Source: Armatimonadota bacterium
Lineage (GTDB): Bacteria; Sysuimicrobiota; Sysuimicrobiia; Sysuimicrobiales; Humicultoraceae
Direction of reading: 5' to 3'
DNA length: 37,203 nucleotides
Assembly: GCA_031081585.1 (NCBI GenBank)
Contig: JAVHLY010000028.1
Location: forward strand, 1 to 37,203
The translations under genes and the position numbers were made by a program. This document shows, in pieces, positions 15,237 through 34,098 of the stretch. The notes under the pieces were generated by a model. The model did no database searches, was not told the origin of the DNA, and saw nothing but the letters and a program-made list of their open reading frames with translations. The stretch's first letter is position 1. Each line of letters begins with the position of its first letter.

Positions 15237-16159
15237 TTGTTCCATATCATGGAACACACCACTCCTCCTGGGCAGGGGCGCAGGCGGGTCCAGGCGGTTG
15301 AACGGCACTGGACCTCCTCCTGGCGTTCGTCGAGGACGGTCCGGAGCTGGGGATCACCGACCTCAGCCGGCGCCTCGCGTTGCCCAAGGCGACCGTCCAC
15401 CGTCTTGTCGAGGCGCTGGTCGCCCGCGACCTGCTGCGCCGCGACCCGCACACCGCGCGCTATGGCCTGGGCCTGATGGCATTTCGCCTCGGCAGCGCCT
15501 TCCTGCGCGCGCTGGACGTCCGCCAGGCCGCACTGCCTGTCATGCAAGCCCTGGCACGCCAGACCGGGGAGACGGTCAACCTGAACATCGTGCAGAGTGG
15601 ACACCGGGTCTGCATCGAGAAGGTGGAAAGCGTCCAGGACGTCCGCCACTTCGTCGAGTTGGGTCGGCCGCTGCCGCTCTTCGCCGGGGCCTCGGGGAAG
15701 GTCTTGCTGGCGCACCTCGATCCGCCGGCGGTGGAGGCGGTGCTCCGGCAGCAGGTGCGGCCGCTGACGGCGCGCACGGTGACCGACCGGGGGCGGATCC
15801 GGGAGGAGCTGGCCCGCATCCGCCAGCGCGGGTACGCCGTCAGTGCCGGTGAGCGGGTCGACGGTGCCTCCGCCGTGAGCGCCCCCGTCCGCAACGCCCA
15901 GGGCGAGGTGGTGGCGGGGCTAACCGTCTCGGGCCCGAGCTACCGGTTCACCCCCGGGCGTGTGCGAACGCTGATCCCCATGGTCCTCGAGGCCGCCGCC
16001 GCGATCTCGAGGAGCGTGGGCTACCTGCCCGGTCCGGCCGATCGCTCGACGGCGACGGAGGTCGGACAGGCCCCCCGGAGGCTTTCCAGGCGCGGGCGTG
16101 TCCCCACGCCGCGACGGGCGGGAGGCCGGCGGACGGTGAGAGAGGCGGCACCGCAATGA
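15237..16159 (+). CDS. IclR family transcriptional regulator, N-terminal frameshift
   Basis: This is a ligand-responsive repressor or activator with an N-terminal winged helix and a C-terminal effector domain. The helix-turn-helix is GITDLSRRLALPKATVHRLVEALVARDLL. The effector domain has GETVNLNIVQSGHRVCIEKVES, FAGASGKVLLAHL and RQRGYAVSAGERVDGASAVSAPV. The start region (TTG 15237 or ATG 15249) encodes RRRVQAVER. The expected continuation A-LDLLLAFVEDGPEL is in another frame; adding one G at about 15304-15306 (CGG-GCA-CTG) joins them, matching the family's 'vqSvERAldlL' start. The intact downstream frame alone, from TTG 15380, would lack half the winged helix. A 40-residue basic tail is unusual. 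The stop overlaps the next gene's ATG (ATGA). It is the first gene of the catabolic cluster and its probable local regulator. Confidence 0.88.
15238..15256. promoter_or_regulatory. 19-bp palindrome, probable IclR operator
   Basis: TGTTCCATATCATGGAACA has perfect 8-bp arms around a 3-bp centre (ATC). It lies at the extreme 5' end of the IclR-family gene, overlapping ATG 15249 and following a TTG start candidate at 15237. IclR regulators bind short palindromes of this size and often repress their own operon. An adjacent GAAC...GTTC half-site pair (15233-15242) may extend the target. Control of the whole downstream cluster through this site is an inference. Confidence 0.7.
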
Positions 16160-17397: not shown

Positions 17398-17900
17398 TGG
17401 ACGTGCTGGAGGGGACCGCCTGGGTCTTCGGCGACCACGTGACGACAGACGACATCTACCCCGGCCGGTATCTCGAACGGCCCCTCGACGAGGCCGGGCG
17501 CTACGCCATGAGCGGACTGGACGAGCACTTCGCCGCGCGGGTGCGCCGCGGCGACTTCGTGGTGGCCGGGGTGAACTTCGGGGCGGGGAGCAGTCGGGAG
17601 GCGGCCGTGGTGGCCCTCCGGGAGGCGGGCGTGTCCGCGGTGATCGCCCGGTCCTTCGGCCGGATCTTCTTCCGAAACGCCATCAACAACGGCCTGCCGG
17701 CGGTCATCGTCCCCGATACCTCGGGGATCCAGGCGGGTGACCGCCTGCGGGTCGACCTCAACGCCCGTCAGGTCACGGTCCTGCGCACCGGGGTGACGCT
17801 TCCCATCGTGAACCTCACGGGGATCTCGCTGGCCATCCTGCGCGCCGGAGGCATTGTCCCGTTCACTGAGGCCCGCCTGGCCGGGAGGCGACGGGCATGA
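17397..17900 (+). CDS. Aconitase-family hydro-lyase, small subunit (LeuD/dimethylmaleate hydratase-like)
   Basis: This is the swivelling-domain subunit of the hydro-lyase, 167 residues, a normal LeuD length for the archaeal-like short type. It begins VFGDHVTTDDIYPGRYL, the conserved D-x-x-x-T-D-x-I-x-P pattern. It continues with FVVAGVNFGAGSSREAAVVALREAG and SFGRIFFRNAINNGLPAV, the substrate-binding Ser/Arg block. Most relatives read FGCGSSRE(H/Q)A; here Cys is Ala and His/Gln is Ala, so substrate contacts may differ. GTG 17397 overlaps the TAG of the large subunit by one base, implying coupled translation of the two subunits. The stop overlaps the lyase ATG (ATGA). Substrate is inferred only from the neighbouring lyase. 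Confidence 0.88.
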   Translation: MDVLEGTAWVFGDHVTTDDIYPGRYLERPLDEAGRYAMSGLDEHFAARVRRGDFVVAGVNFGAGSSREAAVVALREAGVSAVIARSFGRIFFRNAINNGLPAVIVPDTSGIQAGDRLRVDLNARQVTVLRTGVTLPIVNLTGISLAILRAGGIVPFTEARLAGRRRA

Positions 17901-18769
17901 CACCGGCCGCGGGACTCCGGGCCCGCCTGGCGACCGGGCCGATCCTGGTGGCGCCGGGCGCCCCGGACGCGCTTACGGCCCGCATCGTCGAGCGGACGGG
18001 GTTCGAGGCGGTCTACTTCACGGGGGCGGGCTTCGCCTACACCCACCTCGGGGCGCCCGACCTGGGCCTCGTCACTCTGACCGAGACCGCCTGGCGGGTC
18101 GGCACGATCGTCGAGGCCACCGCCCTTCCGGTCATTGTCGACGCCGACGACGGGTATGGGGGGCCGTTCAACGTCAGGCGGACGGTGCGATTGTTGGAGG
18201 CGGCCGGCGCGGCAGCGGTGCAGCTGGAGGACCAGGTGGCGCCCAAGCGATGCGGGCACCTGGCCGGCCAGCGGGTCGTGCCCCCGGACGTCATGGTCGG
18301 CAAGCTCAAGGCGGCGGTGGATGCACGGCGGGACCCGGCCCTGGTCGTGATCGCCCGGACGGACGCGCGCGCCGTGGAGGGGCTGGACGCTGCCCTGGAG
18401 CGGGCGCACCGCTACCGGGAGGCCGGGGCCGACCTGCTCTTCGTGGAGGCCCCGCGCACCCGGGAGGAGCTGGCGCGCATCGCCCGCGAGCTGCCGCCCC
18501 CGGTGATGGCCAACATGGTCGAGGGAGGCCGGACGCCCCTCCTGTCGGCCCCGGAGCTGGACGCCCTCGGATTCCGGCTGGTGATCTTCCCCGGGGCCGC
18601 GGTACGCGCGGCCGCGTTGGTGGTGACGCGCCTGATGGAGCGACTGCGGCAGGACGGCTCGACGGCGGCCATGGTGGACGCCATGCTCTCTTTCGACCAG
18701 CTCAACGCCCTGCTGGACCTCCCGCACTTTCAGGAGCAGGAGCGGCGATACGTGCTCGAGGAGGCCTGA
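17897..18769 (+). CDS. Isocitrate lyase/PEP mutase family C-C lyase (dimethylmalate lyase or methylisocitrate lyase-like)
   Basis: This is a TIM-barrel lyase of 290 residues, the size of PrpB and 2,3-dimethylmalate lyase. It has the Mg-binding VDADDGYGG (Asp82, Asp84, Asp85) and the loop KRCGH (residues 117-121). The loop Cys marks true lyases and is absent from phosphonopyruvate-type members. AVYFTGAGFA at the start and ANMVEGGRTPLLS late in the chain are typical of the 2,3-dimethylmalate lyase/oxaloacetate-hydrolase branch. These enzymes cleave 2-hydroxy-diacids to pyruvate (or glyoxylate) plus a second acid such as propionate or succinate. It overlaps the hydratase small subunit by 4 nt, so hydration followed by cleavage is the likely reaction pair. 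Exact substrate is not assignable. Confidence 0.88.
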   Translation: MTPAAGLRARLATGPILVAPGAPDALTARIVERTGFEAVYFTGAGFAYTHLGAPDLGLVTLTETAWRVGTIVEATALPVIVDADDGYGGPFNVRRTVRLLEAAGAAAVQLEDQVAPKRCGHLAGQRVVPPDVMVGKLKAAVDARRDPALVVIARTDARAVEGLDAALERAHRYREAGADLLFVEAPRTREELARIARELPPPVMANMVEGGRTPLLSAPELDALGFRLVIFPGAAVRAAALVVTRLMERLRQDGSTAAMVDAMLSFDQLNALLDLPHFQEQERRYVLEEA

Positions 18770-18771
18770 GG

Positions 18772-20292
18772 ATGGCACGGTACGATCTCGCGGTCCTGGG
18801 CGGGTCCGTGGTCGTCCCCTACGTGGGAACGGTGCGGGCGGACATCGGGATCCGGGCCGGGCGCATCGCCGCGCTCGCCGAGGAGATCGCATCGGGGGAC
18901 GCCACCGCGGTGGTCGATGCGCGGGGTCGCCTGGTCTTCCCGGGTGCCGTCGACTCCCACTTCCACCTGGGGATCTACCGGGACCTGGCCGAGGATGCGG
19001 CGAGCGAGACGCGGTCGGCGCTCGTCGGTGGCGTCACCACCGTGCTCTCCTACTTCCGCACCGGCCGGCACTACCTCAACCGCAGCGGTCCTTATCGCGA
19101 GATCTTCCCCGAGGTGCTGGCGGCCGTGCGCGGGCGGGCCTACACCGATTACGGTTTCCACATTGCCGTGATGACCGAGGCGCAGCTCGACGAGGTGGCG
19201 TGGCTGGTGGCGGACCAGGGGGTCACGTCCTTCAAGTACTACATGTTCTACAAGGGACTGAACCTCACCGCCGACTCCACCCGGGCCAGCGAGTACACGC
19301 TGGCGGACACCTACGACCTCGGCCACCTCTTCCTGCTCATGGAACGGGTGGCGGCCCAGGCTCACCGGCGCGGCCGGGAGGGGCGGATCTCCCTCAGCCT
19401 GCACTGCGAGCACGCCGAGCTGCTCCGCGTCTTCATCGAGCAGGTGCGCCGGGCCGGGCTGCGGGGCCTGGAGGCCTACCACCGCGCCCGGCCGCCGCTG
19501 TCGGAGCGGCTCTCGCTGGCCGAGGCGGTGCTGCTGGCCGACGCCACCCGGTGCCCTATCAACCTGCTCCACCTGAGCAGCCGTGAGGCGATGGGGGCGG
19601 CCGTCGCAGCCAAGCGGGACTACCCGCACCTGGACATCCGGCTGGAGACCACAGTCCACCACCTGGCCCTGACCTACGATTCGGCCGGGGGGATCCGGGG
19701 GAAGGTGAACCCGCCCATCCGCACCGAGGAGGACCGGCAGGCGCTCTGGGAGGCTGTGGTCCGCGGGGAGGTGGACACGGTGGTGAGCGACCACGCCTGC
19801 TGCTTCGAGGAGGAGAAGGGAGAGGATCTCTGGCGGGCCCTGCCAGGCTTCGGCGGAACGGCGCTCCTCTACCCCTACCTGATCTCGGAGGGGTTCCACC
19901 GGCGCGGGGTACCCGCTGCGAGGATCGCAGAACTGGCCAGTGCCAACTCCGCCCGCGCCTTCGGCCTCTACCCCCGGAAGGGCACCATCGCCCCGGGGGC
20001 GGACGCGGACCTGACCATCGTCGACCCGGAGTGGGAGCAGGAGGTCCACCCCGAGCTCCTGCTCTCCGCGCAGGACTTCACCCCGTTTGCCGGCGCGCGG
20101 CTGCGGGGCTGGCCCACCCACACCGTCCGGGGAGGGCAGGTGGTCTTCGCGCATGGCGAGGTGGTGGGGGAGCCCACGGGCCGGTACCTCCACCGCCCGC
20201 TGCGAGTGGAGGCGCCCGCGGGGGAGGGCGGGGGCGGCACGGCGGGCGGTCGGTTGAGCACCGGGGCAGGGACCCAAGGAGGGATGGGATGA
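18772..20292 (+). CDS. Cyclic amidohydrolase (dihydropyrimidinase/hydantoinase family)
   Basis: This binuclear metal amidohydrolase of 506 residues opens cyclic amides such as hydantoins, dihydropyrimidines or allantoin-like rings. All metal ligands are present: His63 and His65 (DSHFHLG), Lys155 in TSFKYYMFYKG (the lysine carbamylated in this family), His211 (LHCEH), His267 (LLHLSS) and Asp340 (VVSDHAC). The C-terminal composite domain with FGLYPRKGTIAPGADADLTIVDP is normal. The last 30 residues are Gly-rich and probably disordered. ATG 18772 is preceded by GAGG and lies 2 nt after the lyase stop. AAGGAGGG near the end serves the next gene, whose ATG overlaps the stop. The substrate is not fixed by sequence; a Mo hydroxylase further down the cluster suggests an oxidised N-heterocycle. 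Confidence 0.9.
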   Translation: MARYDLAVLGGSVVVPYVGTVRADIGIRAGRIAALAEEIASGDATAVVDARGRLVFPGAVDSHFHLGIYRDLAEDAASETRSALVGGVTTVLSYFRTGRHYLNRSGPYREIFPEVLAAVRGRAYTDYGFHIAVMTEAQLDEVAWLVADQGVTSFKYYMFYKGLNLTADSTRASEYTLADTYDLGHLFLLMERVAAQAHRRGREGRISLSLHCEHAELLRVFIEQVRRAGLRGLEAYHRARPPLSERLSLAEAVLLADATRCPINLLHLSSREAMGAAVAAKRDYPHLDIRLETTVHHLALTYDSAGGIRGKVNPPIRTEEDRQALWEAVVRGEVDTVVSDHACCFEEEKGEDLWRALPGFGGTALLYPYLISEGFHRRGVPAARIAELASANSARAFGLYPRKGTIAPGADADLTIVDPEWEQEVHPELLLSAQDFTPFAGARLRGWPTHTVRGGQVVFAHGEVVGEPTGRYLHRPLRVEAPAGEGGGGTAGGRLSTGAGTQGGMG

Positions 20293-21860
20293 AGGCGAAC
20301 CGAGGACTGGCACACCTGATGGGCGGTCTCGTGACCGTTGCCGCGCTGGTCGCGACCGTCTGGCAGCCGGCGGGGAGCGCTCCGGCCGCGGCGCCGCGTC
20401 GGGGAGGCACGCTGAACGCCACGTTCAGCTCAGACCCGGCGCACCTCGACCCGCACCGGGGGACCACGGCCCAGAACTTCGTCCCCCTGGTCTACAACGG
20501 CCTCGTCCGCTTCAAGACGGGGCCCGGCGTCCAGCCGGACCAGTTCATCATCGAGCCCGACCTGGCGGAGCGCTGGGAGCAGCCGTCCCCCACCACCTAC
20601 GTCTTCCGCCTGCGCCGGGGCGTCCGCTTCCACGACAAGCCCCCCGTGAACGGCCGGGAGCTGACCAGCGACGACGTGGTCTGGAGCCTGGAGCGCATGC
20701 TGGCCGAGGACCCGGAGAACATCAAGCGCGACCTCTTCTCCGTCATCCAGCGGTACGAGGCGGTGGACCGGTACACGGTGCGCGTCACCCTGCGGGAGCC
20801 CTTCGCGCCGTTCCTCCACAACCTGGCCACGGTGTTCGCCTCCATCGTCCCGCGGGCCGACGTGGACTACAAGCGTGTGGCCATCGGGACCGGACCGTTC
20901 ATGCTGGACAGCTTCCAGCGCGGCGTGCGGTACGTCTACAAACGGCACCCCGCCTACTTCGAGCGTGGCCAGCCCTATCTGGACGAGATTGTGATCCACA
21001 TCTTCCGCGATTTCGCCACGCGGGCGGCGGCGCTGCGGGCAGGGCGCATCGACGTCGTGGACCTGCTCCCCTGGGGCCAGGCCCAGCCCATCATCCGTGA
21101 GGGACAGCTGCGGTGGGAGAAGTACCAGGGGATCTTCAGCGTCCACGCGCGCCTGAACGTCGACCGCCCGCCGCTCAATCACGAGAAGGCCCGGCAGGCG
21201 ATGTCGCTGGCGCTCAACCGCCAGGCCATCGCCATCGCGTTGGGCGGCGGGGAGGGCGCGGTGAACGGGCCGGTACCGGCTGGGCTGGGCGTCTGGGCGG
21301 TGGACTGGCGGCGCCTGCCCTTCTTCCAGCGGGATGTGGCCAAGGCCCGTCAGTTGCTGCGGGAGGCGGGGTTCCCCGACGGCGTAACGGTGGAGGCCGT
21401 CGGCGGCGTGAGCCCCGATAACCGGCGCATCATGCTGGAGGCCATGAAGGCCCAGCTCGCCCAGGCGGGGATTACCCTCAACTTCCGGCTGATCGACACC
21501 GCGCAGGTGCAGCGTGTCCGCTTCCAGAAGGACTTCATGATCCTGGCCGACAACTTCACGCTGGCCAGCGACCCGGACAGCTACCTCTACGTGGAGTACC
21601 ACTCCACCTCTAGCGGCAACGTCGGGAACTACCGGGATCCGTCCATTGACCGGCTGCTCGAGGCCCAGCGGCGCGAGCTGGACCAGGCCAGGCGCCTCCC
21701 GCTGGTGCACGAGGCGCAGGTGCGCATCGCCCGAAAGGCCTGGATCCTCACTACCGGCGACCCGATCTACGTCAGCCTCTGGTGGCCCTATGTCCAGGGC
21801 TGGAGGCACCACCACATCAACCAGTACCTGCCGCTCAAGAACGTGTGGCTGGACCGGTAA
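20289..21860 (+). CDS. Peptide/nickel-type ABC transporter substrate-binding protein (SBP family 5)
   Basis: This extracytoplasmic binding protein of the oligopeptide/dipeptide class has 523 residues. A Sec signal peptide (GLVTVAALVATVWQPAGSAPA) is followed by GGTLNATFSSDPAHLDPHRGTT, the standard entry of the family. EPDLAERWEQPSPTTYVFRLRRGVRFHDK and LTSDDVVWSLERM are signature segments. No lipobox Cys is seen, so it may be a free or N-terminally anchored protein. ATG 20289 follows AAGGAGGG and overlaps the amidohydrolase stop by 4 nt. The two permease genes follow. Family members carry peptides, nickel, opines or sugar conjugates; context suggests the cluster's own N-containing substrate. 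Confidence 0.93.
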   Translation: MKANRGLAHLMGGLVTVAALVATVWQPAGSAPAAAPRRGGTLNATFSSDPAHLDPHRGTTAQNFVPLVYNGLVRFKTGPGVQPDQFIIEPDLAERWEQPSPTTYVFRLRRGVRFHDKPPVNGRELTSDDVVWSLERMLAEDPENIKRDLFSVIQRYEAVDRYTVRVTLREPFAPFLHNLATVFASIVPRADVDYKRVAIGTGPFMLDSFQRGVRYVYKRHPAYFERGQPYLDEIVIHIFRDFATRAAALRAGRIDVVDLLPWGQAQPIIREGQLRWEKYQGIFSVHARLNVDRPPLNHEKARQAMSLALNRQAIAIALGGGEGAVNGPVPAGLGVWAVDWRRLPFFQRDVAKARQLLREAGFPDGVTVEAVGGVSPDNRRIMLEAMKAQLAQAGITLNFRLIDTAQVQRVRFQKDFMILADNFTLASDPDSYLYVEYHSTSSGNVGNYRDPSIDRLLEAQRRELDQARRLPLVHEAQVRIARKAWILTTGDPIYVSLWWPYVQGWRHHHINQYLPLKNVWLDR

Positions 21861-21869
21861 AAACGGGCG

Positions 21870-22814
21870 GTGCGGCACTACCTGCTTAGGCGGGCGATCC
21901 TGGCCGTGGCGGCGCTGTGGGGACTCTCCCTGCTCGCCTTCGGGCTGATTCGGATCGTTCCCGGGGACGTCCTCATGGCGCGCCTGGAGGAATCCGGAAC
22001 CGTCACCGACCTGGCGGCGGCCCGGGCGGCGCTCGGGCTGGACCGTCCGTTCCTGGTCCAGTACGCGGCCTGGGTGAGCGGTGTGCTGCGGGGTGACCTG
22101 GGGGTCTCGTTCTGGTCGGGACGACCGGTGCGTCACGACCTGCTGGCGGCCCTGCCCGTGAGCGTGGAGCTGGCGGTGCTGGCCATGACGCTCTCGGTGG
22201 TCATCGGGCTGCCGCTGGGTGTGGCGGCGGCGGCCCGCCGCGGCGGCCCGCTGGACTATGCCGCCCGCCTCTTCAGCTTCGGTGGGCTCAGCGTCACCCA
22301 CTTCTGGATCGCCACGCTGGTGCTGCTCTACGGCTCGATCTGGCTCCGCTGGGTGCCTCCGCTGGGGTACGTCCCCCTGCACACGTCACCGGCGCAGAAC
22401 CTGGAGCAGTTCCTGATCCCGGCGGCCATTCTGGGCGTCCACCTCTCCGCCCGCAGCCTGCGGATGGTGCGCTCGTCCCTCCTGGAGGTCCTGCAGGACG
22501 ACTACGTGCGCACGGCCTGGGCCAAAGGGCTGGCTCCCAGGCGAGTCCTGTGGGCCCACGCCGTCCGCAACGCGCTCATCCCCATCCTGACCGTGCTGGG
22601 GAGCCAGTTCGTCTACCTGCTCAGCGGCGCGGTGATCATCGAGGACATCTTTGCCCTCAGCGGGGTCGGCCGGTACGTGGTGGACGCCATCACCCACCGG
22701 GACTACCCGGCGGTCCAGGCGGCGGTCCTCTTCACGGGCCTGGTTGTCGTGCTGGTGAACCTGCTCGTCGACCTGGCGTACGCCTGGATCGATCCCCGCA
22801 TCCGGTACGCCTGA
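21870..22814 (+). CDS. Dpp/Opp-type ABC transporter permease, first subunit
   Basis: This is an integral inner-membrane permease, 314 residues, of the DppB type. It starts VRHYLLRRAILAVAALWGLSLLAFGLIRIVPGD, the characteristic first membrane helix and loop with the 'PGD' motif, and has about six hydrophobic segments. The ATPase-coupling EAA loop is DDYVRTAWAKGLAPRRVLWAHAVRNALIP. GTG 21870 lies 9 nt after the binding-protein stop; no better start is visible. It forms a heterodimer with the next gene's product. No DppD/DppF ATPase genes occur in the window. Confidence 0.93.
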   Translation: MRHYLLRRAILAVAALWGLSLLAFGLIRIVPGDVLMARLEESGTVTDLAAARAALGLDRPFLVQYAAWVSGVLRGDLGVSFWSGRPVRHDLLAALPVSVELAVLAMTLSVVIGLPLGVAAAARRGGPLDYAARLFSFGGLSVTHFWIATLVLLYGSIWLRWVPPLGYVPLHTSPAQNLEQFLIPAAILGVHLSARSLRMVRSSLLEVLQDDYVRTAWAKGLAPRRVLWAHAVRNALIPILTVLGSQFVYLLSGAVIIEDIFALSGVGRYVVDAITHRDYPAVQAAVLFTGLVVVLVNLLVDLAYAWIDPRIRYA

Positions 22815-23732
22815 ATGGGCGGCGTGCTCTCCTCTCGTCGTGGGGTGCTCCTGCCGGCTCTGGGACCGAGGCGCCGGGCGGGACCATGGGGGGGCATGCT
22901 GCGACGGCTCCTCCGTTGGCACCCCGGCGGCGTGCTGGCGGCGGCCGTGCTGGCGGGGCTGCTCGTCGCCTCCCTCGGTGCGCCCTGGCTGGCCCCGCAC
23001 GACCCCTACGCGCAAGATTACAATGCCCTGATGCGTCCTCCCGGCACCCACTACCCCCTGGGGACCGACTACCTGGGACGCGATGTCCTCTCCCGCACGC
23101 TGTACGGCGGCCGGACCTCGCTGCTGATCAGCCTGGCCTCGATCGGCGTGGGCACGGTGGCAGGCACGGCCGTGGGCCTGCTCTCCGGCTACTACGGCGG
23201 CTGGCTGGATGGCGCGGTGCAGCGCGTGGTGGACGTGCTGATGGCGTTGCCGGCCATCATCCTGGCGCTGGCCCTCATGGCGGTGCTGGGCCCGCGCCTG
23301 GAGAACGTGGTCCTGGCCATCGCCATCGTCGTCCTGCCGGGGCTGGCGCGCGTCGTGCGCGGGGTGGTCCTCCAGCTGCGCGAGTTCCAGTTCGTCGAGG
23401 CGGCCCGGGCGCTGGGAGCCTCCGACGCCCGCCTCCTCTTGCGCCACCTCCTGCCCAACGCCGTGGCGCCGGTCATCGTGCTGGCCACCAACGCCCTGTC
23501 GGCGGCCATCCTCATCGAAGCGTCCCTCTCGTTCCTGGGGCTGGGCACCCAGCCGCCCGTCCCCTCCTGGGGGAACATGCTGAGCGAGGAAGCGCGACGG
23601 TACTTCGAGCAGGCCCCTTGGATGGCGTTGCCCCCAGGGGTCGCCCTCAGCCTGGCGGTCCTGGCCGTGAACTTCCTGGGCGACGCGCTGCGCGACGCCC
23701 TCGACCCGCGGCTGCGGAGGAGCGGGGCATGA
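22815..23732 (+). CDS. Dpp/Opp-type ABC transporter permease, second subunit
   Basis: This is the DppC-type partner permease, 305 residues. After a basic N-terminus (residues 1-30) come the first membrane helix and the periplasmic signature APHDPYAQDYNALMRPPGTHYPLGTDYLGRDVLSR, found in nearly all DppC/OppC proteins. The EAA loop is QFVEAARALGASDARLLLRHLLPNAVAP, and the C-terminus has SLSFLGLGTQPPVPSWGNML. ATG 22815 starts on the base after the previous stop; ATG 22896 (MLRRLLRW) is an alternative that would remove the Arg/Gly-rich leader. Its stop overlaps the M20 gene ATG by 4 nt. Confidence 0.93.
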   Translation: MGGVLSSRRGVLLPALGPRRRAGPWGGMLRRLLRWHPGGVLAAAVLAGLLVASLGAPWLAPHDPYAQDYNALMRPPGTHYPLGTDYLGRDVLSRTLYGGRTSLLISLASIGVGTVAGTAVGLLSGYYGGWLDGAVQRVVDVLMALPAIILALALMAVLGPRLENVVLAIAIVVLPGLARVVRGVVLQLREFQFVEAARALGASDARLLLRHLLPNAVAPVIVLATNALSAAILIEASLSFLGLGTQPPVPSWGNMLSEEARRYFEQAPWMALPPGVALSLAVLAVNFLGDALRDALDPRLRRSGA

Positions 23733-25135
23733 GCCTCCCCGTCGCCCGGGCGGCCCTCGCCGCGGCGGAGGAACGCCACCGCGGGCGCTTCGCCGACCAC
23801 GTGGCGGAGCTGGCCGCGTTCTGCCGGATCCCCTCGGTCGGCGGCGACGACGCCGCCATGGGCCAGGCTGTGGCGTGGCTCGAGGCGGCCATGCGGCGCA
23901 GCGGCATCGAGGTCGAAGTCTGGCCGGGCGAAGGCAACCACCCCTACCTGGTGGGCATGGCCCGCGGCGCCGCTGCGCGGACCCTGCTCTTCTTCAACCA
24001 CTACGACATCGCCACCTACACCAACCCGATCGAGCGGCGGCCAGGGGACCGGGACCCCTTCTCGGGCGCCGTGGAGGGGGAGCGCCTCTACGCCCGCGGG
24101 GTGGCCGACGACAAGGCCACGCTCCTCTCCCGCATCCACGCGGTGCGCCTCTGGCACGAGGCGAATGGGACGCTGCCGGTGACCGTGAAGTTCCTGCTGG
24201 AGGGCAAGCGCGGGTTAGCCACCGACGGGCTTGGGCGCTTCCTCGCCCGGGCCTTCCCCCGGGTCGCGGCCGACGCCTGCTGCTGGGAGGCGGGGGCCAA
24301 GGACGAGGCGGACCGCCCGGTGATCACCCTCGGCCACAAGGGGCAGCTCTACGTCGAGTTGCGGTGCCGCACCGCCAACGGCGACTACCCCTCCCGCCTA
24401 ACCGCCCTCCCCAACAGCGCGTGGCGGCTGGTATGGGCGCTCGCCTCGCTCAAGGATCCGGACGAACGTGTCCGCCTGCCGGGCTTCTACGACCGGGTCC
24501 GGCGGCCCGGCCCTGCCGAGGAGGAGTGGTGCTACCGGCACCTCCCCGCCGACGTCTCCGGCTTGCGGGCGAGCACCGGGGTCAGGGCGTTCGTCGCCGG
24601 GCTGGACGGCCAGCGCGTCATGCGGTTCACCTACACCGAGCCGACGGTAGGGCTCTGCGGGCTGGCGGCGGGGGAGGCCGGCCCGGCCCACCGGCTCGTC
24701 ATCCCCGGCGAGAGCCGCGCCCACGTCGAGTTCCGCCTGGTGCCGGATCAGGATCCCGAGGAGGTGCTCACCAGCCTGCGGGCCCACCTGGACCAGGGAG
24801 GCTTTCCCGACATCACCCTCGAGGTGCGCAGCATGCTCCCGCCCTACACCACCGACCCTGACGGCCCGCTCCCGCGGCTGGTTGGGGAGGCTGCCGAAGA
24901 GGTCTATGGCCGGCGTCCGGTGTTGGTCCCCTTCGCCACCGGCATCGGCCACCGCTACCTCTTCCGGCGCTACAGCTCCATGCCGATCGTGGGGTTCGCG
25001 GTAGGGTACGCCGGCTCGGCGCTGGAGACCAACGACGAGCACATCCGCCTGCGGGACTACGACGAGGGGATCCGCCACGTCCTGGCGATCCTGGCGCGGG
25101 CACCGACGCTCCCCGCGGTCGGGGGGGAGGGGTAG
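23729..25135 (+). CDS. M20-fold metallohydrolase-like protein A, altered active site
   Basis: This 468-residue protein is closest to the M20 dipeptidase branch (PepV/carnosinase-like). The first metal motifs are kept: FNHYDIATYT (His91, Asp93) and ARGVADDKA (Asp127). The dipeptidase-typical NVKFLxEGEEExGS block is instead VKFLLEGKRG (158-162), so the catalytic-base and metal-ligand glutamates are replaced by Lys/Arg/Gly. The substrate-lid 'DLHSG' is DYPSR. The C-terminal 'HSPNEH' is ETNDEH (Glu433 for the metal His). WEAGAKDE occupies the position of the usual Asp ligand. VIPGESRAHVEFRLVPDQDP and PGFYD are normal. The protein is full length and conserved with its neighbour, so this looks like a distinct subfamily, not decay. 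It may have another metal set, another reaction or a non-catalytic role. Confidence 0.85.
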   Translation: MSLPVARAALAAAEERHRGRFADHVAELAAFCRIPSVGGDDAAMGQAVAWLEAAMRRSGIEVEVWPGEGNHPYLVGMARGAAARTLLFFNHYDIATYTNPIERRPGDRDPFSGAVEGERLYARGVADDKATLLSRIHAVRLWHEANGTLPVTVKFLLEGKRGLATDGLGRFLARAFPRVAADACCWEAGAKDEADRPVITLGHKGQLYVELRCRTANGDYPSRLTALPNSAWRLVWALASLKDPDERVRLPGFYDRVRRPGPAEEEWCYRHLPADVSGLRASTGVRAFVAGLDGQRVMRFTYTEPTVGLCGLAAGEAGPAHRLVIPGESRAHVEFRLVPDQDPEEVLTSLRAHLDQGGFPDITLEVRSMLPPYTTDPDGPLPRLVGEAAEEVYGRRPVLVPFATGIGHRYLFRRYSSMPIVGFAVGYAGSALETNDEHIRLRDYDEGIRHVLAILARAPTLPAVGGEG

Positions 25136-25137
25136 GT

Positions 25138-26496
25138 ATGCGCACCCGCACCGGCGCGGTCGATGCGTACATCAGCGGGGGGATGGCGCAGTGGATGTCG
25201 GAACTCGCGGAGTTCTGCGCCTTCCCCAGCGTCGGCGACCGGTCGGAGGCGATGCACGCCGCGGCGCAGTGGCTGGTCCGGCGGCTGGCCGCCGCGGGGC
25301 TGGCCGCGCGCCTGCTGGCGGTCACGGACGGGTTCCCCGCGGTCTACGCCGAGGCGCCCGGCCGCTCCCCGCGCACCGTGCTCTTCTTCAACCACTACGA
25401 CATCGCCGCCTACACCCACCCGCTGCCGCGGGACCTGTTGCAGGTCCCCGTCAGGCTGGCCGCAGACCGGCTCTTCGCCCGCGGGGTGGCGGACGACAAG
25501 GGGTGCTGCTTCTCGCGGATCGTGGCCGTGGAGGCGCTCCTGCGCACCCACGGGCGCCTGCCGGTGGGGGTGAAGTTCCTCATCCTCGGCAAGCGGGTCC
25601 CCAACGATCCCTGTCTGGATGACGTCCTCGCCCGCTACCCCGAGGTCCTGGCCTGTGACGCGGTGATCTGGGAGACGGGAGCGAAGGACGAGCGCGACCG
25701 TCCCACCGCGTCCCTGGGCGCCAAGGGATACCTCTACGTGGAGCTGGTGGTGCGGAACCCGGCCGGGGCCCAACCCTCGCGCATCAGCATCCTGCCCAAC
25801 CCGGCCTGGGACCTGGTCTGGGCCCTGAGCACGCTGAAGGGCCCGGACGAACGCATCCGCGTCCCCGGCTTCTACGACGACGTCCTCCCCCCTACGCCCG
25901 CGGACCTGGAGGTCCTGGCCGTTCTGGGCGAAGACCTGGACGAGCGCGTCGCGCGGCGGATGGGCGCACCGCGCTTCGTGCTGGGGTGCCGGGGGCTCGA
26001 GGCGGCTCGCCGCTGGTTCTTCGAACCCTCCTGCACAGTCTGCGGCCTCGTGGGCGGGGAGACCGGTTCGGAGGAGCGGCTGGTCATCCCCGCGGAGGCC
26101 CGGGCCAAGGTGGAGTTCCGGCTGGTGGCCCGGCAGGACCCGGCGGACATCGCCCGGAAGGTGCGGGCCCACCTCGACCGGGAGGGGTTCGGGCACGTCG
26201 AGATGGTTGTGCGCTCCCAGACCACCCCGTACCGGACACCGGCGAACGACCCCCTCGTTCGGGCAGCCCAGCGGGCAGCCCTGCAGGTCTACGGGCAGCC
26301 CCTGGTGATCCGTCCCACCTCGGTGGGGATGAGCCCCAAGTACCGGTTTGCTCCCCGCCCGACCCTGGGCATTGGGGTCGAGTACGCCGGTTCGGCGATG
26401 GAGATGCCGGACGAGCACATCCGGCTCGAAGACTGGGAGCAGGGCGCGCGCATGGTGGCTGCTGTGCTGGAGGCGTACGCGGAGGAGTCGGGATGA
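25138..26496 (+). CDS. M20-fold metallohydrolase-like protein B, tandem paralogue
   Basis: This 452-residue paralogue lies 2 nt downstream of protein A. Shared blocks include FNHYDIAAYT (His86, Asp88), ARGVADDKG (Asp119), LPVGVKFL, W-E-T-G-A-K-D-E, PGFYDDV, AKVEFRLVARQDP and YAGSAMEMPDEHIRL. It shows the same replacements: ILGKR (Lys152, Arg153) for EGEEE, here without even the leading Glu; QPSR for the lid His motif; and Glu422 for the late metal His. It differs from A in the middle (residues about 240-310), which has no simple alignment. M20 dipeptidase-type enzymes dimerise through the lid domain, so A and B could form a heterodimer; this is inference. ATG 25138 follows GGGGAGGGGTAGG. The stop overlaps the DUF3891 gene by 4 nt. 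Confidence 0.85.
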   Translation: MRTRTGAVDAYISGGMAQWMSELAEFCAFPSVGDRSEAMHAAAQWLVRRLAAAGLAARLLAVTDGFPAVYAEAPGRSPRTVLFFNHYDIAAYTHPLPRDLLQVPVRLAADRLFARGVADDKGCCFSRIVAVEALLRTHGRLPVGVKFLILGKRVPNDPCLDDVLARYPEVLACDAVIWETGAKDERDRPTASLGAKGYLYVELVVRNPAGAQPSRISILPNPAWDLVWALSTLKGPDERIRVPGFYDDVLPPTPADLEVLAVLGEDLDERVARRMGAPRFVLGCRGLEAARRWFFEPSCTVCGLVGGETGSEERLVIPAEARAKVEFRLVARQDPADIARKVRAHLDREGFGHVEMVVRSQTTPYRTPANDPLVRAAQRAALQVYGQPLVIRPTSVGMSPKYRFAPRPTLGIGVEYAGSAMEMPDEHIRLEDWEQGARMVAAVLEAYAEESG

Positions 26497-27308
26497 TCGT
26501 GCGCGAGGAGGATGGGCGGTGGCTGCTGATCCGCCAGGTCGACCACGCAGCGCTGGCGGGGGACCTGGCGCGGCACTGGGGGAATGAGACTTTCGAGCGG
26601 CCGGAGCCCCACGCGTCCGTGGTGATCGCTGCGACCATGCACGACGAGGGGTGGCGGGAACAGGACGCATTGCCCCGGTACGACGCCACCCGGGCCGGCC
26701 CGCTGCACTGGCGTGACATCCCGGTCCAGGAGCACGTCGCCTTCTACGCCGTCGGGATCGAGCGGACGGTGGCCCGGGACCCCTACGCCGGGTTGCTGGC
26801 CAGCATGCACGGGGCGGGGATCTACACGCAGCGCTACGGGACCTTTCCCGTCTACATGACGACGATCACGCCCGAGGCCCGTCCTTGGATCGAGACCTTC
26901 ATCCGGGATCAGGAGGCGCTCCAGGCGGAACTGAAGCGCCGGCTGTGGAGCCCCCGGGAGCGCCGCAGCCGCTTCGAGCGGCAGCTGTGGACGAACTACG
27001 AATGGCTGCAGATCTACGACCGCCTCTCGCTCTTCCTCTGTCTGCATGACCTGCGGGGGGCGGTACAGGACCGGCTGGGCCCCACGCCGCTCGGCATCGA
27101 CGCCCCGACGGTGGAGCTGACGGTGGCGGCGCTGGGCGACGATGTGGTGGTGGTCGAGCCCTGGCCCTTCGACGTCGCCGAGGTGACGGTGGCCCTACCG
27201 GTCCGGCGTATCCCTCGCCGCCCCTATGCCGACCTGGCCGACCTCCAGGGCACGGTGGGGGCGGCGGCGGAGGAGTCCATCCGGGCCTGGCTCGTCCCGC
27301 AGGCATGA
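26493..27308 (+). CDS. DUF3891 family protein
   Basis: The 271-residue protein matches the uncharacterised DUF3891 family in pattern: WLLIRQVDHAALAGDLARHWG near the start, then ATMHDEGWREQD, PLHWRDIPVQEH, DPYAGLLASMHGAGIYTQRYGT and a C-terminal LCLHDL. The repeated His and His-Asp pairs resemble a metal-binding, HD-like helical fold, so a metal-dependent hydrolase is possible, but no reaction is known to me. There is no signal peptide or membrane segment. The gene overlaps the M20 gene upstream and the Mo-hydroxylase gene downstream, each by 4 nt, so it is made together with them. Context suggests a step between ring oxidation and chain hydrolysis. Confidence 0.82.
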   Translation: MIVREEDGRWLLIRQVDHAALAGDLARHWGNETFERPEPHASVVIAATMHDEGWREQDALPRYDATRAGPLHWRDIPVQEHVAFYAVGIERTVARDPYAGLLASMHGAGIYTQRYGTFPVYMTTITPEARPWIETFIRDQEALQAELKRRLWSPRERRSRFERQLWTNYEWLQIYDRLSLFLCLHDLRGAVQDRLGPTPLGIDAPTVELTVAALGDDVVVVEPWPFDVAEVTVALPVRRIPRRPYADLADLQGTVGAAAEESIRAWLVPQA

Positions 27309-29704
27309 CGACGGGGACGGCCGGACGCTACGTCGGGCAGTCGGTGCGCCGCATCGACGGGGCCGCACTGGTCACGGGACAGGCGCGCTTCGTTGGCGAC
27401 CTGTCCTTCCCTGGGCTCCTCCACGTCGCCATCCTGCGCAGTCCCCACGCCCACGCCCGCATCCGGCGGGTCGAGACCGCCGCCGCCGTCGCCATGCCCG
27501 GCGTGGTCGCCGTCCTGTCCGGCGAGGATGTCCGCCGCCACCTCGACCCCATCCCGCACCGCGTCGACCCTGCGTCGGTCGGGGGCCGCAGCGCGGAGGT
27601 CTGGGCGCTCGCGCCTGAGGAGGTCCTCTACGCGGGGCAGGGCGTGGCCGCGGTGGCCGCCGAGACCCTGGAGCAGGCGCGGGCTGCGCTGGCCCGCATC
27701 AGGGTGGCATACGAGCCGCTGCCCGTCGTGCTCGACGCCGAGGAGGCGTTGCGACCGGACGCGCCGCGGGTCGTGGAGGGATGGCCGGACAACGTCCTCC
27801 TGGCCGGGCAGATCCGTCACGGCGACGTCGAGGGGGCCATGGCGCGCGCCCACCGGGTGGTGCGGGCGACCATCCGGATCCACCGCTACTCCACCCAGCC
27901 CCTGGAGCCCCGCAGCTACCTGGCCGTCCCCGATCTCCTGGGGGACGCGCTGATCCTCTACGCGACCACGCAGAACCCCCATCAGCTCCGGCACATGCTG
28001 GCGCGGACCTTGCGCCTGCCTGAGCACCGGCTGCGCATCATCGTGCCGCGCCTGGGTGGAGCCTTCGGGCTGAAGATGATTGGGCACCCCGAGGAGTCGC
28101 TGGTCTGCCTGTTCGCCCTCCTCACGCGGCGGCCGGTCCGATGGGTGGCCAGCCGGGAGGAGGAGCTGCTCATCGGCGGTCGGGAGCAGGTGCACCACAT
28201 CGAGGTGGGGTGCACGGCCGAGGGGCGCATGGTGGCCTTCCGCGACCGCTTTGTCGCCAACGTCGGCGCCCCCTACCCCACGCCTGGCTGGGGGATGGCG
28301 CCGCTCACCGCAGCCACCCTGCCCGGCGTCTACGACGTGCAGGACGTGGACATCGCCTACACGCTGGTGGCCACCCACAAGGGTCCTTGGACGGCATCGC
28401 GCGGGTACGGCAAGGAGGCGGCCACGGTGGTGATGGAGCGGGTCGTGGATCTGGTGGCGAGGGCGTGCGGCCTCGACCCGGTGGACGTCCGCCTGCGCAA
28501 CCTCATTGCCCCCGACGCCTTCCCCTACCGCACCGCCACCGGGCTGGTCCTCGACAGCGGCGACTACCCGGCGTTGCTGCGGCGCGTCCTCGACATGGCC
28601 GGCTACGAGCGGCTGCGGGAGGCGCAGGCCCGGCTGCGCGCCCACGGTCGGTGGTTCGGGGTGGGCGTGGCGATGGAGCTCACTCCTGAAGGCGGCAGCC
28701 TCCCGCGGTCCCTGGTGGCCGGGTACGACAGCGCCACCGTGCGTGTCGCCCCGTCCGGGGCGGTGACGGTCCTCACCGGCGTGACCAGCCCGGGCACTGG
28801 CAACGAGACGGCGATGGCCCAACTCGTGGCCGAGGAACTGGGCGTTCCACCCGAGACCATCCGGGTGGTGCAGGGCGACACGGACCTGTGCCCCTACGGC
28901 TTTGGCACCTACAGTGGCCGCAGCGTCATCGCCGGAGGCACAGCCGCGGTGCTGGCGGCACGGGAGGTGCGGGCGAAGATGGCGCAGGTGGCGTCGGCGC
29001 TGCTCGGGGCGCCCCCGGACGTCCTGCGCTTCCGCGACGGACGGGTCGAGGTCGACGCCCGTCCCATCCACGACCACCGGCCCCGGAGCGTCGCCTTTGG
29101 CGAGGTCGCCTACGTGGCCCACGCGCAGGCCTACGACCTGGCCCGGATGATCGAGCCGCCGCTCGAGGCCACCCGCACCTACCGTCCGCCCACCATCAGC
29201 CACCGGCCGGACGCCCACGGACGGATCAACCCCTATCCTACGTACTCGGCCTGCGCGTACGTGGTCGCCGCAGAGGTGGACCCGGAGACAGCGGTCGTGC
29301 AGGTGCGGCAGGTCAGCGCCGTGCACGATGCCGGCGTGGTGGTCAACCCGGCGCTGGTGGCGGGGCAACTGCGCGGGGCCGTGGCCATGGGGCTGGGCGG
29401 GGCGTTGAGCGAGGAGGTCCGCTACGCTCCGGACGGGACGCGGCTGACCACTTCGCTGGGGGACTACCGCATGCTCCGGGCCCCCGACCTGCCGCCCATC
29501 GTCGTGGACCATCGGGTCACGCCCAGCCCTCACACCCTGCTGGGCGTGAAGGGGGGCGGAGAGGCGGGGGTGGGCGGGGCGGCCGCGGCCCTGATGAATG
29601 CCGTGGCCGACGCGCTGGCGCCGCTCGGGGTCGACGTGCTGGCGCTGCCGCTCCGTCCCGATGCCCTCTGGCAGGCCATGCAGAGCGCCAGGCACCGACG
29701 ATGA
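27305..29704 (+). CDS. Xanthine dehydrogenase-family molybdopterin-binding subunit
   Basis: This is the large catalytic subunit, 799 residues, of a Mo hydroxylase that inserts water-derived oxygen into N-heterocycles or aldehydes. The N-terminal a/b-hammerhead domain has VRRIDGAALVTGQARFVGDL and LRSPHAHARI. The molybdopterin domains have GGAFGLK (251 onward) and ASRGYGKEA. The C-terminal active-site motif is KGGGEAGVGGA with Glu753, the base of this family (most relatives read KGxGE). FGTYSGRSVIAGGTAA is also typical. The substrate pocket is not predictable: xanthine, nicotinate, uracil, isoquinoline or CO enzymes share these motifs, though the CO dehydrogenase active-site loop (AYRCSFR) is absent. 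It overlaps its neighbours by 4 nt; FAD and 2Fe-2S subunits follow. Confidence 0.93.
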   Translation: MTTGTAGRYVGQSVRRIDGAALVTGQARFVGDLSFPGLLHVAILRSPHAHARIRRVETAAAVAMPGVVAVLSGEDVRRHLDPIPHRVDPASVGGRSAEVWALAPEEVLYAGQGVAAVAAETLEQARAALARIRVAYEPLPVVLDAEEALRPDAPRVVEGWPDNVLLAGQIRHGDVEGAMARAHRVVRATIRIHRYSTQPLEPRSYLAVPDLLGDALILYATTQNPHQLRHMLARTLRLPEHRLRIIVPRLGGAFGLKMIGHPEESLVCLFALLTRRPVRWVASREEELLIGGREQVHHIEVGCTAEGRMVAFRDRFVANVGAPYPTPGWGMAPLTAATLPGVYDVQDVDIAYTLVATHKGPWTASRGYGKEAATVVMERVVDLVARACGLDPVDVRLRNLIAPDAFPYRTATGLVLDSGDYPALLRRVLDMAGYERLREAQARLRAHGRWFGVGVAMELTPEGGSLPRSLVAGYDSATVRVAPSGAVTVLTGVTSPGTGNETAMAQLVAEELGVPPETIRVVQGDTDLCPYGFGTYSGRSVIAGGTAAVLAAREVRAKMAQVASALLGAPPDVLRFRDGRVEVDARPIHDHRPRSVAFGEVAYVAHAQAYDLARMIEPPLEATRTYRPPTISHRPDAHGRINPYPTYSACAYVVAAEVDPETAVVQVRQVSAVHDAGVVVNPALVAGQLRGAVAMGLGGALSEEVRYAPDGTRLTTSLGDYRMLRAPDLPPIVVDHRVTPSPHTLLGVKGGGEAGVGGAAAALMNAVADALAPLGVDVLALPLRPDALWQAMQSARHRR

Positions 29705-30561
29705 CCGCCCCCGTCTACCACGCCCCCGCGACGCTGGAGGAGGCTCTCGCCCTCCTGGGGGCCTGCGGGGACGAGGCCGCCATCGTCGCCGGCGGCCAGG
29801 AGGTGGTCCCGCTCCTCACGGCCGGACGGATCGCCCCGCGGATGCTCGTCGACCTCCGTCGGCTCGACGCCCTCACGGGGATCACCGAGGAGCCCGATAC
29901 GCTCAGGCTCGGTGCCCGGGTCACCCACCGCGAGATCGCCTCCAGTCCGGTGGTGCGCGGTCGGTGGAGTCTGCTGACCCAGGCCGCTGCGGCAATCGGC
30001 GGCGGTGTCCAGGTGCTGAACCGCGGGACGCTCGGCGGTGCCCTCTGCGCCGCGCACCCCGCGTACGACTACGCTCCCTGCCTGGTAGCCCTCCAGGCGG
30101 TGGTGGTGCTGGCCAGTGCGCGGGGCCGTCGTTCTCTCCCGGTGCAGACGTTCTTCACGGGGGCGGGAAGGACCGCACGGCGGCCGGATGAGCTCCTCCT
30201 CGAGGTCCGCATCCCTGCACCGCCTCCGCCGACGACGGCCGCCTACCGGAAACTCCGTGCGGTCTGGGGCGGGCCGGGCGTGGTCAACGCCGCCTGCCTG
30301 GTGCGGCGGGAAGGCGACCGTCTGGTCGACATCCGGCTCACCGTGGGGGCCGTTGAGGAGACACCCGTGGTCGTCTCGCTGGACCACCTCAGGGGTGCGC
30401 CGCCCGATGCGGTCCCCGAGCGCGCGGCAGAGGCCGCGCAGGACCTCGTCCGCCATCCCATCGAGGATGCGGCTGCCGGGGCAGCGTACCGTCGCGCCAT
30501 GGCCGGAGTCATGGCCCGGCGGGCCGTTGCCGCCGCGATGACGGCGAGGGAGAGCCCGTGA
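29701..30561 (+). CDS. Xanthine dehydrogenase-family FAD-binding subunit
   Basis: This is the medium subunit of the Mo hydroxylase, 286 residues, passing electrons from the 2Fe-2S centres to FAD and an acceptor. YHAPATLEEALALLGACGDEAAIVAGGQEVVPLL contains the first FAD pyrophosphate motif (usually AGGTDLLP). NRGTLGGALCAAHPAYDYAP is the second (usually N-x-G-T-x-G-G-N). The C-terminal CO_deh_flav_C-type domain begins YRKLRAVWGGPGVVNAAC. The order large-FAD-FeS differs from the common FAD-FeS-large order but is found in several bacteria. ATG 29701 overlaps the large-subunit stop by 4 nt. No frameshift seen. Confidence 0.92.
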   Translation: MTAPVYHAPATLEEALALLGACGDEAAIVAGGQEVVPLLTAGRIAPRMLVDLRRLDALTGITEEPDTLRLGARVTHREIASSPVVRGRWSLLTQAAAAIGGGVQVLNRGTLGGALCAAHPAYDYAPCLVALQAVVVLASARGRRSLPVQTFFTGAGRTARRPDELLLEVRIPAPPPPTTAAYRKLRAVWGGPGVVNAACLVRREGDRLVDIRLTVGAVEETPVVVSLDHLRGAPPDAVPERAAEAAQDLVRHPIEDAAAGAAYRRAMAGVMARRAVAAAMTARESP

Positions 30562-31097
30562 GCGGCCCGGCAGGGGGCTCGGGGGTGTCGATCCGCCTGA
30601 CCGTGAACGGACAGGAGCGGGAGGTGGTCGTCGACACCCGCTGGTCGCTGCTGCAGCTACTGCGGGAGGGACTGGGGTTGGCGGGGACCCGCTTCGGCTG
30701 TCTCACCGGGCACTGCGGTGCGTGCACCGTCCTGCTGGGAGGCCTCGCCGTGAAGGCCTGCACGGTGCTGGCCGCCTCTGCGGAGGGGCAAGAAGTGGTC
30801 ACGGTCGAGGGGCTGGCCACCGAGGGACGTCTCCATCCCCTGCAGCAGGCCTTCTGGGAGCACCACGCGCTGCAGTGCGGCTACTGTACCCCCGGCATGA
30901 TCCTCACCGCCCTCGACCTGCTGCGCCGTTCCCCGGCCCCCGCAGCAGCAGAGATCCGGATGGGCCTGGCCGGGACGCTCTGCCGGTGCACCGGATACGA
31001 CGCCATCGTGGAGGCTGTGCTGGCGGCCGCCCGCGCCATGGCCGGCGCTCAGGCGCCCGCGACGCGGACAGCGACGCCCCCAGCGGGATGGCCATGA
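30558..31097 (+). CDS. Xanthine dehydrogenase-family 2Fe-2S subunit
   Basis: This is the small iron-sulfur subunit, 179 residues. The plant-type ferredoxin cluster is bound by Cys48, Cys53, Cys56 and Cys68 (FGCLTGHCGACT...KAC). The second cluster is bound by Cys107, Cys110, Cys142 and Cys144 (QCGYCTPGM...LCRCTGY). All eight ligands are present. The start is GTG 30558, overlapping the FAD-subunit stop (GTGA); the ferredoxin fold begins at about residue 12, so the start is consistent. The 20-residue Ala/Pro/Thr tail after the helical domain is not conserved. With the two preceding genes it completes a three-subunit enzyme, similar in composition to nicotinate and carbon monoxide dehydrogenases. 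Confidence 0.95.
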   Translation: MSGPAGGSGVSIRLTVNGQEREVVVDTRWSLLQLLREGLGLAGTRFGCLTGHCGACTVLLGGLAVKACTVLAASAEGQEVVTVEGLATEGRLHPLQQAFWEHHALQCGYCTPGMILTALDLLRRSPAPAAAEIRMGLAGTLCRCTGYDAIVEAVLAAARAMAGAQAPATRTATPPAGWP

Positions 31098-31939
31098 AGA
31101 TCTGGTTCCAGAAGCACATCGTCTCGGGACGCCTTCCAGCGCTCGATCGGGCGTACGCGGCGCACTTCCGCCGCGTGGCCCGGCCAGGCACCGAGGTACA
31201 CCTCTACACCCTCCCGCCGGACACCTATGCGGGCGCCCTGCCCGAGCCGCTGGTGCGCACGCATGCCGTGGAATCGCTCTTCGCAGGGTACTTCGCGCTC
31301 CAGGCGCTGCGGGCGGAGCGGGCCGGGTACGACGCCTTCGTCATCGGGACGAGCCAGGACCCCGGCCTGGCGGAGGCGCGGGCCTGGGCGCGCATCCCCG
31401 TCCTCGGGTTCGGCCAGGTGGCTGCGCACGTCGCCGGTGTCCTGGGCGCGCGCTTCGGCCACGTCGGCTTCATCGCTGAGCTGGCCGATCCCATTCGGGT
31501 CAACCTCCTGCGCGACGGTCTGGCGCACCGCTGGGTCGGGTTTCACCCGCTGGGCGCCGGTCCGCGGGAGTTACTGGCAGCGCTCGACGGGGACGCCGCG
31601 CCGCTCCGGGAGGCGTTCACGGCCGCCGCACGTGCCGCCATCGCGGCGGGCGCGGAGGTGCTGATTCCCGGCGACGGGGTGACCAACGAGGCGCTGGTGG
31701 CTGCGGGCCTCGGCGCCGTGGACGGGGTGCCGGTCATCGACGCCAACGGGCTCCTGGTGAAGGCGGCCGAGCTGTTCGTCGACCTCCGGACGCTCGGGAT
31801 CGCCACCCCGCCGACCACCGGCTATGCCCACGGCCGCCCGGACGATGCCACGGCGGATCACCTGTTGCGCCTGTTCGCGCCCAGGGCCTTCACCCTGGGA
31901 CCAGATCCGACCCTGAGGCCGGAGGAGGGGAGGGAGTGA
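31094..31939 (+). CDS. Asp/Glu/hydantoin racemase-fold protein without cysteine
   Basis: The 281-residue protein has the two-domain fold pattern of the aspartate/glutamate/hydantoin racemase superfamily: an N-terminal MKIWFQKHI strand, YDAFVIGTSQDPGLAEARAWARIPVLGFGQVAAHVA, FGHVGFIAE, and AGAEVLIPGDGVTNEALVAAGL. Catalysis in this family uses two cysteines, one before 'DPGL' and one in 'LGCxG'. Here those sites are Gly-Thr-Ser (85-87) and Pro-Gly-Asp-Gly (192-195), and the complete protein has no cysteine at all. It is therefore unlikely to be an ordinary racemase; it may be an isomerase, decarboxylase or ligand-binding protein using other groups. ATG 31094 overlaps the 2Fe-2S subunit stop by 4 nt. 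It lies directly before a Liv-type ABC importer. Confidence 0.85.
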   Translation: MKIWFQKHIVSGRLPALDRAYAAHFRRVARPGTEVHLYTLPPDTYAGALPEPLVRTHAVESLFAGYFALQALRAERAGYDAFVIGTSQDPGLAEARAWARIPVLGFGQVAAHVAGVLGARFGHVGFIAELADPIRVNLLRDGLAHRWVGFHPLGAGPRELLAALDGDAAPLREAFTAAARAAIAAGAEVLIPGDGVTNEALVAAGLGAVDGVPVIDANGLLVKAAELFVDLRTLGIATPPTTGYAHGRPDDATADHLLRLFAPRAFTLGPDPTLRPEEGRE

Positions 31940-33198: not shown

Positions 33199-33211
33199 GA
33201 GGCGAGGGGCG

Positions 33212-34084: not shown

Positions 34085-34098
34085 CGGCGCCGGGGATC

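Follow-up and report, generated by a model that had tools for sequence, protein, structure and literature searches.

Two adjacent genes, A and B, in a stretch of 37,203 nucleotides from an Armatimonadota bacterium (GCA_031081585.1, contig JAVHLY010000028.1, positions 1 to 37,203 of the forward strand; this whole stretch is called the window below) encode paralogous members of the M20 peptidase superfamily in which the general base, both private ligands of one of the two metals and two lid residues of the active site are replaced, and in which the ligands of the other metal are kept. We propose, with a probability of roughly one half, that A and B are a duplicated and repurposed M20 protein with a single metal site that is not a peptidase and that would be either an enzyme of new chemistry or a binding protein. 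M20 enzymes occur universally and almost always carry a peptidase or deacylase annotation, and automatic annotation would miscall A and B. The two genes lie as follows:

23729..25135, + strand: gene A, 468 amino acids, M20 protein of the Sso-CP2/PRK06446 type with a non-canonical active site
25138..26496, + strand: gene B, 452 amino acids, paralogue of A with an active site that is non-canonical in the same way

The reading frames are uninterrupted at both loci, and their products share 46% amino acid identity. Both match the Peptidase_M20 (PF01546) and M20_dimer (PF07687) models of Pfam above cut-off, and for A and B alike the nearest NCBIfam model is PRK06446, whose scores of 258 (A) and 240 bits (B) fall below the curated cut-off of 369 but mark it as the nearest family all the same. 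The nearest solved structure by sequence is for each of them the metallo-carboxypeptidase Sso-CP2 (PDB 4mmo), which is also the top PDB fold match of a predicted structure of A (template modelling (TM) score of 0.86-0.92). This alignment-based model was built on 71 sequences and reached a mean predicted local distance difference test score (pLDDT) of 93 and a predicted TM score (pTM) of 0.92; a single-sequence model with a pLDDT of 37 was discarded. A and B are thus M20 peptidase superfamily proteins by sequence and fold, and the fold itself is ordinary. The start of A is joined by an ATGA overlap to the preceding DppC/Opp4C-like permease gene, B follows a GGAGG-like stretch and starts 2 nucleotides past the A stop codon, and another ATGA overlap connects the stop of B to the following DUF3891 gene. 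Given these overlaps and the short gap between A and B, co-translation of these genes is very likely.

Replaced and retained residues of the active site

Residues were assigned by a HMMER alignment of A to mouse CN2 in combination with the CN2 ligand list of PMC6271292, according to which His445 and Glu167 bind one metal, His99 and Asp195 bind the other, Asp132 bridges, and Glu166 is catalytic. Conservation was compared between 101 relatives of the same M20 subfamily and four proteins of what we call the KR form, defined by Arg at the position of the catalytic Glu plus the accompanying replacements seen in A and B; these four are A and B plus the homologue of each in another genome, L016 (see below). 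The replaced residues are encoded at the following positions:

24206..24214, + strand: Lys160-Arg161-Gly162 of A, with Arg for the catalytic Glu and Gly for the metal-ligand Glu
25591..25599, + strand: Lys152-Arg153-Val154 of B, with the catalytic Glu and the metal-ligand Glu replaced as in A
25025..25027, + strand: Glu433 of A, in place of the late metal-ligand His (CN2 His445)
26401..26403, + strand: Glu422 of B, in place of the late metal-ligand His
24389..24391, + strand: Pro221 of A, in place of the lid His (CN2 His228)
25774..25776, + strand: Pro213 of B, in place of the lid His
24695..24697, + strand: Leu323 of A, in place of the invariant lid Thr (CN2 Thr330)
26080..26082, + strand: Leu315 of B, in place of the lid Thr

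Positions 161, 162, 221, 323 and 433 of A are occupied by Glu, Glu, His, Thr and His without exception in the 101 relatives, and all four KR-type proteins have lost the canonical residue at each of them, a pattern that is therefore far beyond chance. The catalytic Glu (CN2 Glu166) is Arg throughout the four (Arg161 in A, Arg153 in B), the metal-ligand Glu next to it (CN2 Glu167, position 162 of A) has become Gly, Thr, Val or Lys, the late metal His is uniformly Glu, and the lid His, which reaches into the active site of the partner, is uniformly Pro. In CNDP2, His228B and Thr330B come from the partner subunit, and Thr330 touches the ligand across chains in docking (PMC12655758). The residues newly fixed in all four KR-type proteins cluster at the pocket motifs and comprise F89, I94, A95, K160, R161, P221, R223, L323 and E433; at several of these positions the relatives invariably have another residue.

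An earlier note on this DNA had reported intact frames for A and B, a well-conserved fold, and the motifs EGKRG (158-162 of A), LGKR (150-153 of B), DYPSR/AQPSR, ETNDEH/EMPDEH, HYD and ADDK, all of which are found at the places and coordinates that it gave, and its claims of a lost lid His and of Glu for the late metal His in both proteins agree with the comparison above. It had also read Lys-Arg (positions 160-161 of A) as standing where the catalytic Glu-Glu should be, which is off by one residue: the alignment to CN2 places the pair at positions 161-162, and Lys160 falls on a non-catalytic position that is Met in CN2 and Glu in most, not all, of the relatives. The unremarkable fold and subfamily membership of A and B could suggest that they are ordinary active M20 amidases or peptidases with catalytic residues that are misaligned or lie elsewhere, an alternative that the earlier note itself had raised. 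This explanation is contradicted by the alignment of the motif regions with the 101 relatives and solved structures, which leaves no intact Glu-Glu or His ligand elsewhere in the chain, and we consider it highly improbable.

The ligands of the remaining metal site are encoded by A as follows:

23999..24001, + strand: His91, kept ligand of the remaining metal site
24107..24109, + strand: Asp127, kept ligand of the remaining metal site
24287..24289, + strand: Glu187, kept ligand of the remaining metal site

These residues (CN2 His99, Asp132 and Asp195) are unchanged across the 101 relatives and the four KR-type proteins, with Glu being customary at the position of CN2 Asp195 in the M20 subfamily of A and B, and Asp93, Lys129 and Arg336 are likewise unchanged in all four. 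With His91, Asp127 and Glu187 kept and the ligands at positions 162 and 433 replaced, one metal site is dismantled and the other complete in its ligands. The loss of metal-site residues claimed by the earlier note holds for the first of these sites only, since the His, Asp and Glu of the second, equivalent to the primary site of ArgE, are kept in all four proteins. In Escherichia coli ArgE, mutation of the second-site His355 leaves metal binding that resembles the first binding event (PMC4320195), and one zinc is common to the mono- and di-zinc structures while Asp112, Glu145 and His355 bind the other (PMC11270798). The ArgE counterpart of the complete site appears to be the one that fills first, and it holds the zinc in the mono-zinc crystal form.

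Judged by their sequences, A and B are M20 members that fail the defining features of M20 hydrolases, i.e., the general base, one metal site and the lid His. They share the two-domain fold and the HYD, DDK and WE motifs with Sso-CP2 and PRK06446 but are devoid of their catalytic Glu, two metal ligands, lid His and lid Thr. Similarly, the carnosinase CN2/CNDP2 (PDB 2zof) has a homologous fold with a His99/Asp132/Asp195 site comparable to His91/Asp127/Glu187 of A, but its Glu166, Glu167, His445, His228 and Thr330 are replaced in A by Arg161, Gly162, Glu433, Pro221 and Leu323. The mono-zinc form of ArgE (PDB 7RSF) provides a precedent for an M20 fold with one zinc at a site that is independent of the Glu145/His355 pair (PMC11270798), though ArgE has not lost its general base Glu144 and is able to bind a second zinc. 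Non-peptide chemistry on an M20-type fold is known from 5-nitroanthranilate aminohydrolase (PDB 5k8m-5k8p), which is among the fold matches of A despite ca. 16% identity in the structural alignment and no match in the sequence search. This enzyme uses a single metal. Its reaction is hydrolytic and thought to proceed via nucleophilic aromatic substitution (PMC11903332). In other peptidase families, Ecm14 (M14) and MPP-alpha (M16) have the peptidase fold without the catalytic residues, and the general base Glu of Ecm14 is replaced by a cation (Glu to Lys) with no detected activity (PMC11266112); unlike these cases, A and B are both altered and keep one whole metal site.

Origin and maintenance of the KR form

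A scan of GTDB species revealed a second KR-bearing genome, L016 (MENB01000152, deposited as Armatimonadetes), with homologues that are 65% identical to A and 68% identical to B and lie in the same gene order as in the window. Among the 43 genomes of the window's phylum, L016 matches G017, which belongs to the same order as the window genome and to a different family. Beyond these two genomes, the KR form was found in none of ca. 1,850 genomes (including ca. 1,800 from other groups) and on no plasmid among the best 15 of 246 matching plasmid records, noting that the large genome searches scored the best 4-8 candidates per genome and that all GTDB species were scanned with six short peptide seeds, which may have let divergent KR members escape. 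The closest non-KR matches were inspected singly for their motifs with the exception of two weaker ones, and in a literature search we found KR-type M20 proteins nowhere described.

In a maximum-likelihood tree calculated without the motif columns, A, B and the two L016 homologues (A' and B') form one clade with a support of 99/91, present in 99% of bootstrap trees, that splits into A+A' and B+B' halves; a second tree groups them alike, with long branches before the clade. This topology indicates that the replacements arose once, ahead of the duplication that gave rise to A and B. The new clade of Lys-Arg forms that the earlier note had anticipated is thus recovered, and the changes occur in more than one genome. 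Its proposal that A and B changed in parallel is ruled out by both trees, in which the KR clade is monophyletic. By this monophyly, the KR clade would represent a separate subfamily with four members in two genomes, and A and B co-occur in both. The replacement of the peptide-cutting parts once in a shared ancestor and their preservation in this state in two distantly related genomes argue for a different job, so that A and B probably do something other than cutting peptides in a gene cluster for nutrient uptake.

The ratio of nonsynonymous to synonymous differences per site (pN/pS) between the window genome and L016 is 0.43 for A as well as for B, compared to 0.42 for the PrpB-like lyase of the operon, 0.30-0.32 for the transporter and amidohydrolase genes, and 0.64 for DUF3891. 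Because this value resembles that of the lyase and the KR-type proteins share their newly fixed residues, we conclude that A and B are under purifying selection and that the altered site is maintained and not decaying. The long branches leading to the KR clade could be taken as a sign of decaying genes or of sequence error, which is contradicted by a pN/pS on par with neighbouring enzymes and by frames that are intact in two independent assemblies with identical replacements in four genes; neither frameshifts nor losses of the retained ligands were seen in KR-type genes, and this explanation is scarcely credible.

Tandem M20 gene pairs are also found at L034 (7935-10677) and L036 (7941-10695), where both copies have canonical active sites, as well as at G009:C33, G010:C4, G007:C4 and G002:C33. 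Several of these pairs fall within the window's phylum, and pairing seems to be a recurring arrangement.

Possible functions of the A/B pair

Before the duplication, an M20 ancestor of the Sso-CP2 type exchanged its general base Glu for Arg161 and lost the two ligands that serve one metal alone, with Glu becoming Gly, Thr, Val or Lys at position 162 and His becoming Glu433. Pro221 took the place of the lid His and Leu323 that of the lid Thr, and the fold and His91, Asp127 and Glu187 stayed in place. Under purifying selection, both copies have remained adjacent between a peptide-type importer and a block of DUF3891 and molybdenum hydroxylase genes in the two genomes. In the scenario that we propose, the pocket would hold one divalent metal, Arg161 and perhaps Lys160 would form an ion pair with Glu433 where the second metal used to be, and hydrolysis of peptides by the canonical two-metal route would be impossible. 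The role of A and B would instead concern a compound that enters through the SBP_bac_5 solute-binding protein (SBP5) and the permeases and that the molybdenum hydroxylase oxidises. We see about an even chance that they act on this compound, which probably contains nitrogen, by a different metal-dependent reaction, and we favour this over an activity limited to binding the imported compound, which seems rather unlikely.

The immediate position of A and B 3' of the importer permeases is also what might be expected of catalytically dead pseudoenzymes that serve to bind the imported compound or pass it on, or that scaffold or regulate neighbouring enzymes with metal ligands of merely structural importance. 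Inactive members are known in metallopeptidase families (PMC11266112), and the general base, one metal site, the lid His and the lid Thr are all gone together. Such an explanation has to account for the intact His91, Asp93, Asp127, Lys129, Glu187 and Arg336 and the shared new charged pocket residues in all four KR-type proteins, and for changes in both copies, unlike in active/inactive pairs such as MPP alpha/beta; moreover, no intact M20 partner that could be regulated adjoins them. We view inactive pseudoenzymes as a less likely alternative.

A and B may dimerise with each other in the manner of M20 proteins, which is plausible because of their co-translation and the conserved dimer domain. 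An obligate heterodimer with unlike sites that complement each other in trans would go further: the genes are adjacent and translationally coupled in an order that is conserved in both genomes, an M20 dimerisation domain is detected in each product, M20 enzymes can borrow partner residues such as His228B and Thr330B of CNDP2 (PMC12655758), and DapE requires its dimerisation domain (PMC4012986). The partner-supplied His and Thr are gone from both A and B, though, so neither subunit can complete the canonical site of the other, and we regard an obligate heterodimer of this kind as less likely than not. The most specific model that we considered, an obligate A-B heterodimer with one metal per site and an Arg-Glu ion pair replacing the second metal that performs a non-peptidase step in the degradation of an imported nitrogen-containing compound together with the DUF3891/molybdenum hydroxylase cassette, is improbable in this full form.

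Several points weigh against the repurposed one-metal protein that we prefer. The ion pair of Arg161 and Glu433 is a guess from the alignment, and both the single metal and turnover are predictions from the pattern of ligands. A three-ligand site with a single His could be a weak metal binder, only two genomes are known to carry the KR clade, and a catalytically dead binding protein is also compatible with the sequence facts. If A and B are active, they would show how a two-metal hydrolase turns into a one-metal protein when an ion pair takes over from one metal site and the gene is duplicated, and the pair would offer a ready test system with few parts. If inactive, they would be a rare M20 pseudoenzyme pair retained within a catabolic operon.

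The surrounding cassette and operon

A and B are part of a cassette that extends from 20289 to 31939 in the window and has been inserted between two parts of a catabolic core operon that relatives carry without it:

15380..20292, + strand: core operon part 1, with IclR regulator, LeuC-like and LeuD-like hydratase, PrpB-like lyase and cyclic amidohydrolase (kept in cassette-free relatives)
20289..21860, + strand: SBP_bac_5 solute-binding protein (DppA/GsiB-like), first gene of the cassette
21870..22814, + strand: DppB/Opp2B-like permease
22815..23732, + strand: DppC/Opp4C-like permease
26493..27308, + strand: DUF3891 protein (PF13030)
27305..29704, + strand: molybdenum hydroxylase large subunit (xanthine dehydrogenase / carbon monoxide dehydrogenase family)
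29701..30561, + strand: molybdenum hydroxylase flavin adenine dinucleotide (FAD) subunit
30558..31097, + strand: molybdenum hydroxylase 2Fe-2S subunit
31100..31939, + strand: Asp/Glu/hydantoin racemase family protein (start codon approximate)
31936..36598, + strand: core operon part 2, with LivK and a LivHMGF-type ATP-binding cassette (ABC) transporter (in relatives immediately downstream of the amidohydrolase)

Most core operon genes share about 60-88% amino acid identity with those of several genomes of the phylum that do not have the cassette. Five cassette-free relatives (G039, G038, G004, G016 and G041) carry the LeuCD-PrpB-amidohydrolase genes and none of the genes from SBP5 to the racemase, and four of the five have close LivK genes beside the amidohydrolase or the regulator. 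In L016, the junction between amidohydrolase and SBP5 is the same as in the window, and the contig continues through the molybdenum hydroxylase genes before it breaks off. An amidohydrolase tree does not place the two cassette-bearing operons as each other's closest kin, which indicates that the cassette has moved or been lost more than once. The amidohydrolase of the window (18766-20289) clusters with family f5 (87% identical to G039) instead of f1, the family of the window genome (75-80%), which points to a transfer of the core operon between families. It retains the hydantoinase-type metal motifs HFH, SFKYY and SDH, and the gene content of the core operon points to a pathway in which a cyclic imide or a compound resembling hydantoin is ring-opened, hydrated and cleaved by a lyase.

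The cassette contains no ATPase genes for its Dpp-type importer, which may borrow the two oligo_HPY ATPases that the window genome holds, both on contig C2. DUF3891 is found in three of the 43 genomes of the phylum, i.e., the two cassette genomes and G011, and with 44-47% identity between the two cassette genomes its protein is the least conserved of the cassette members that were compared.

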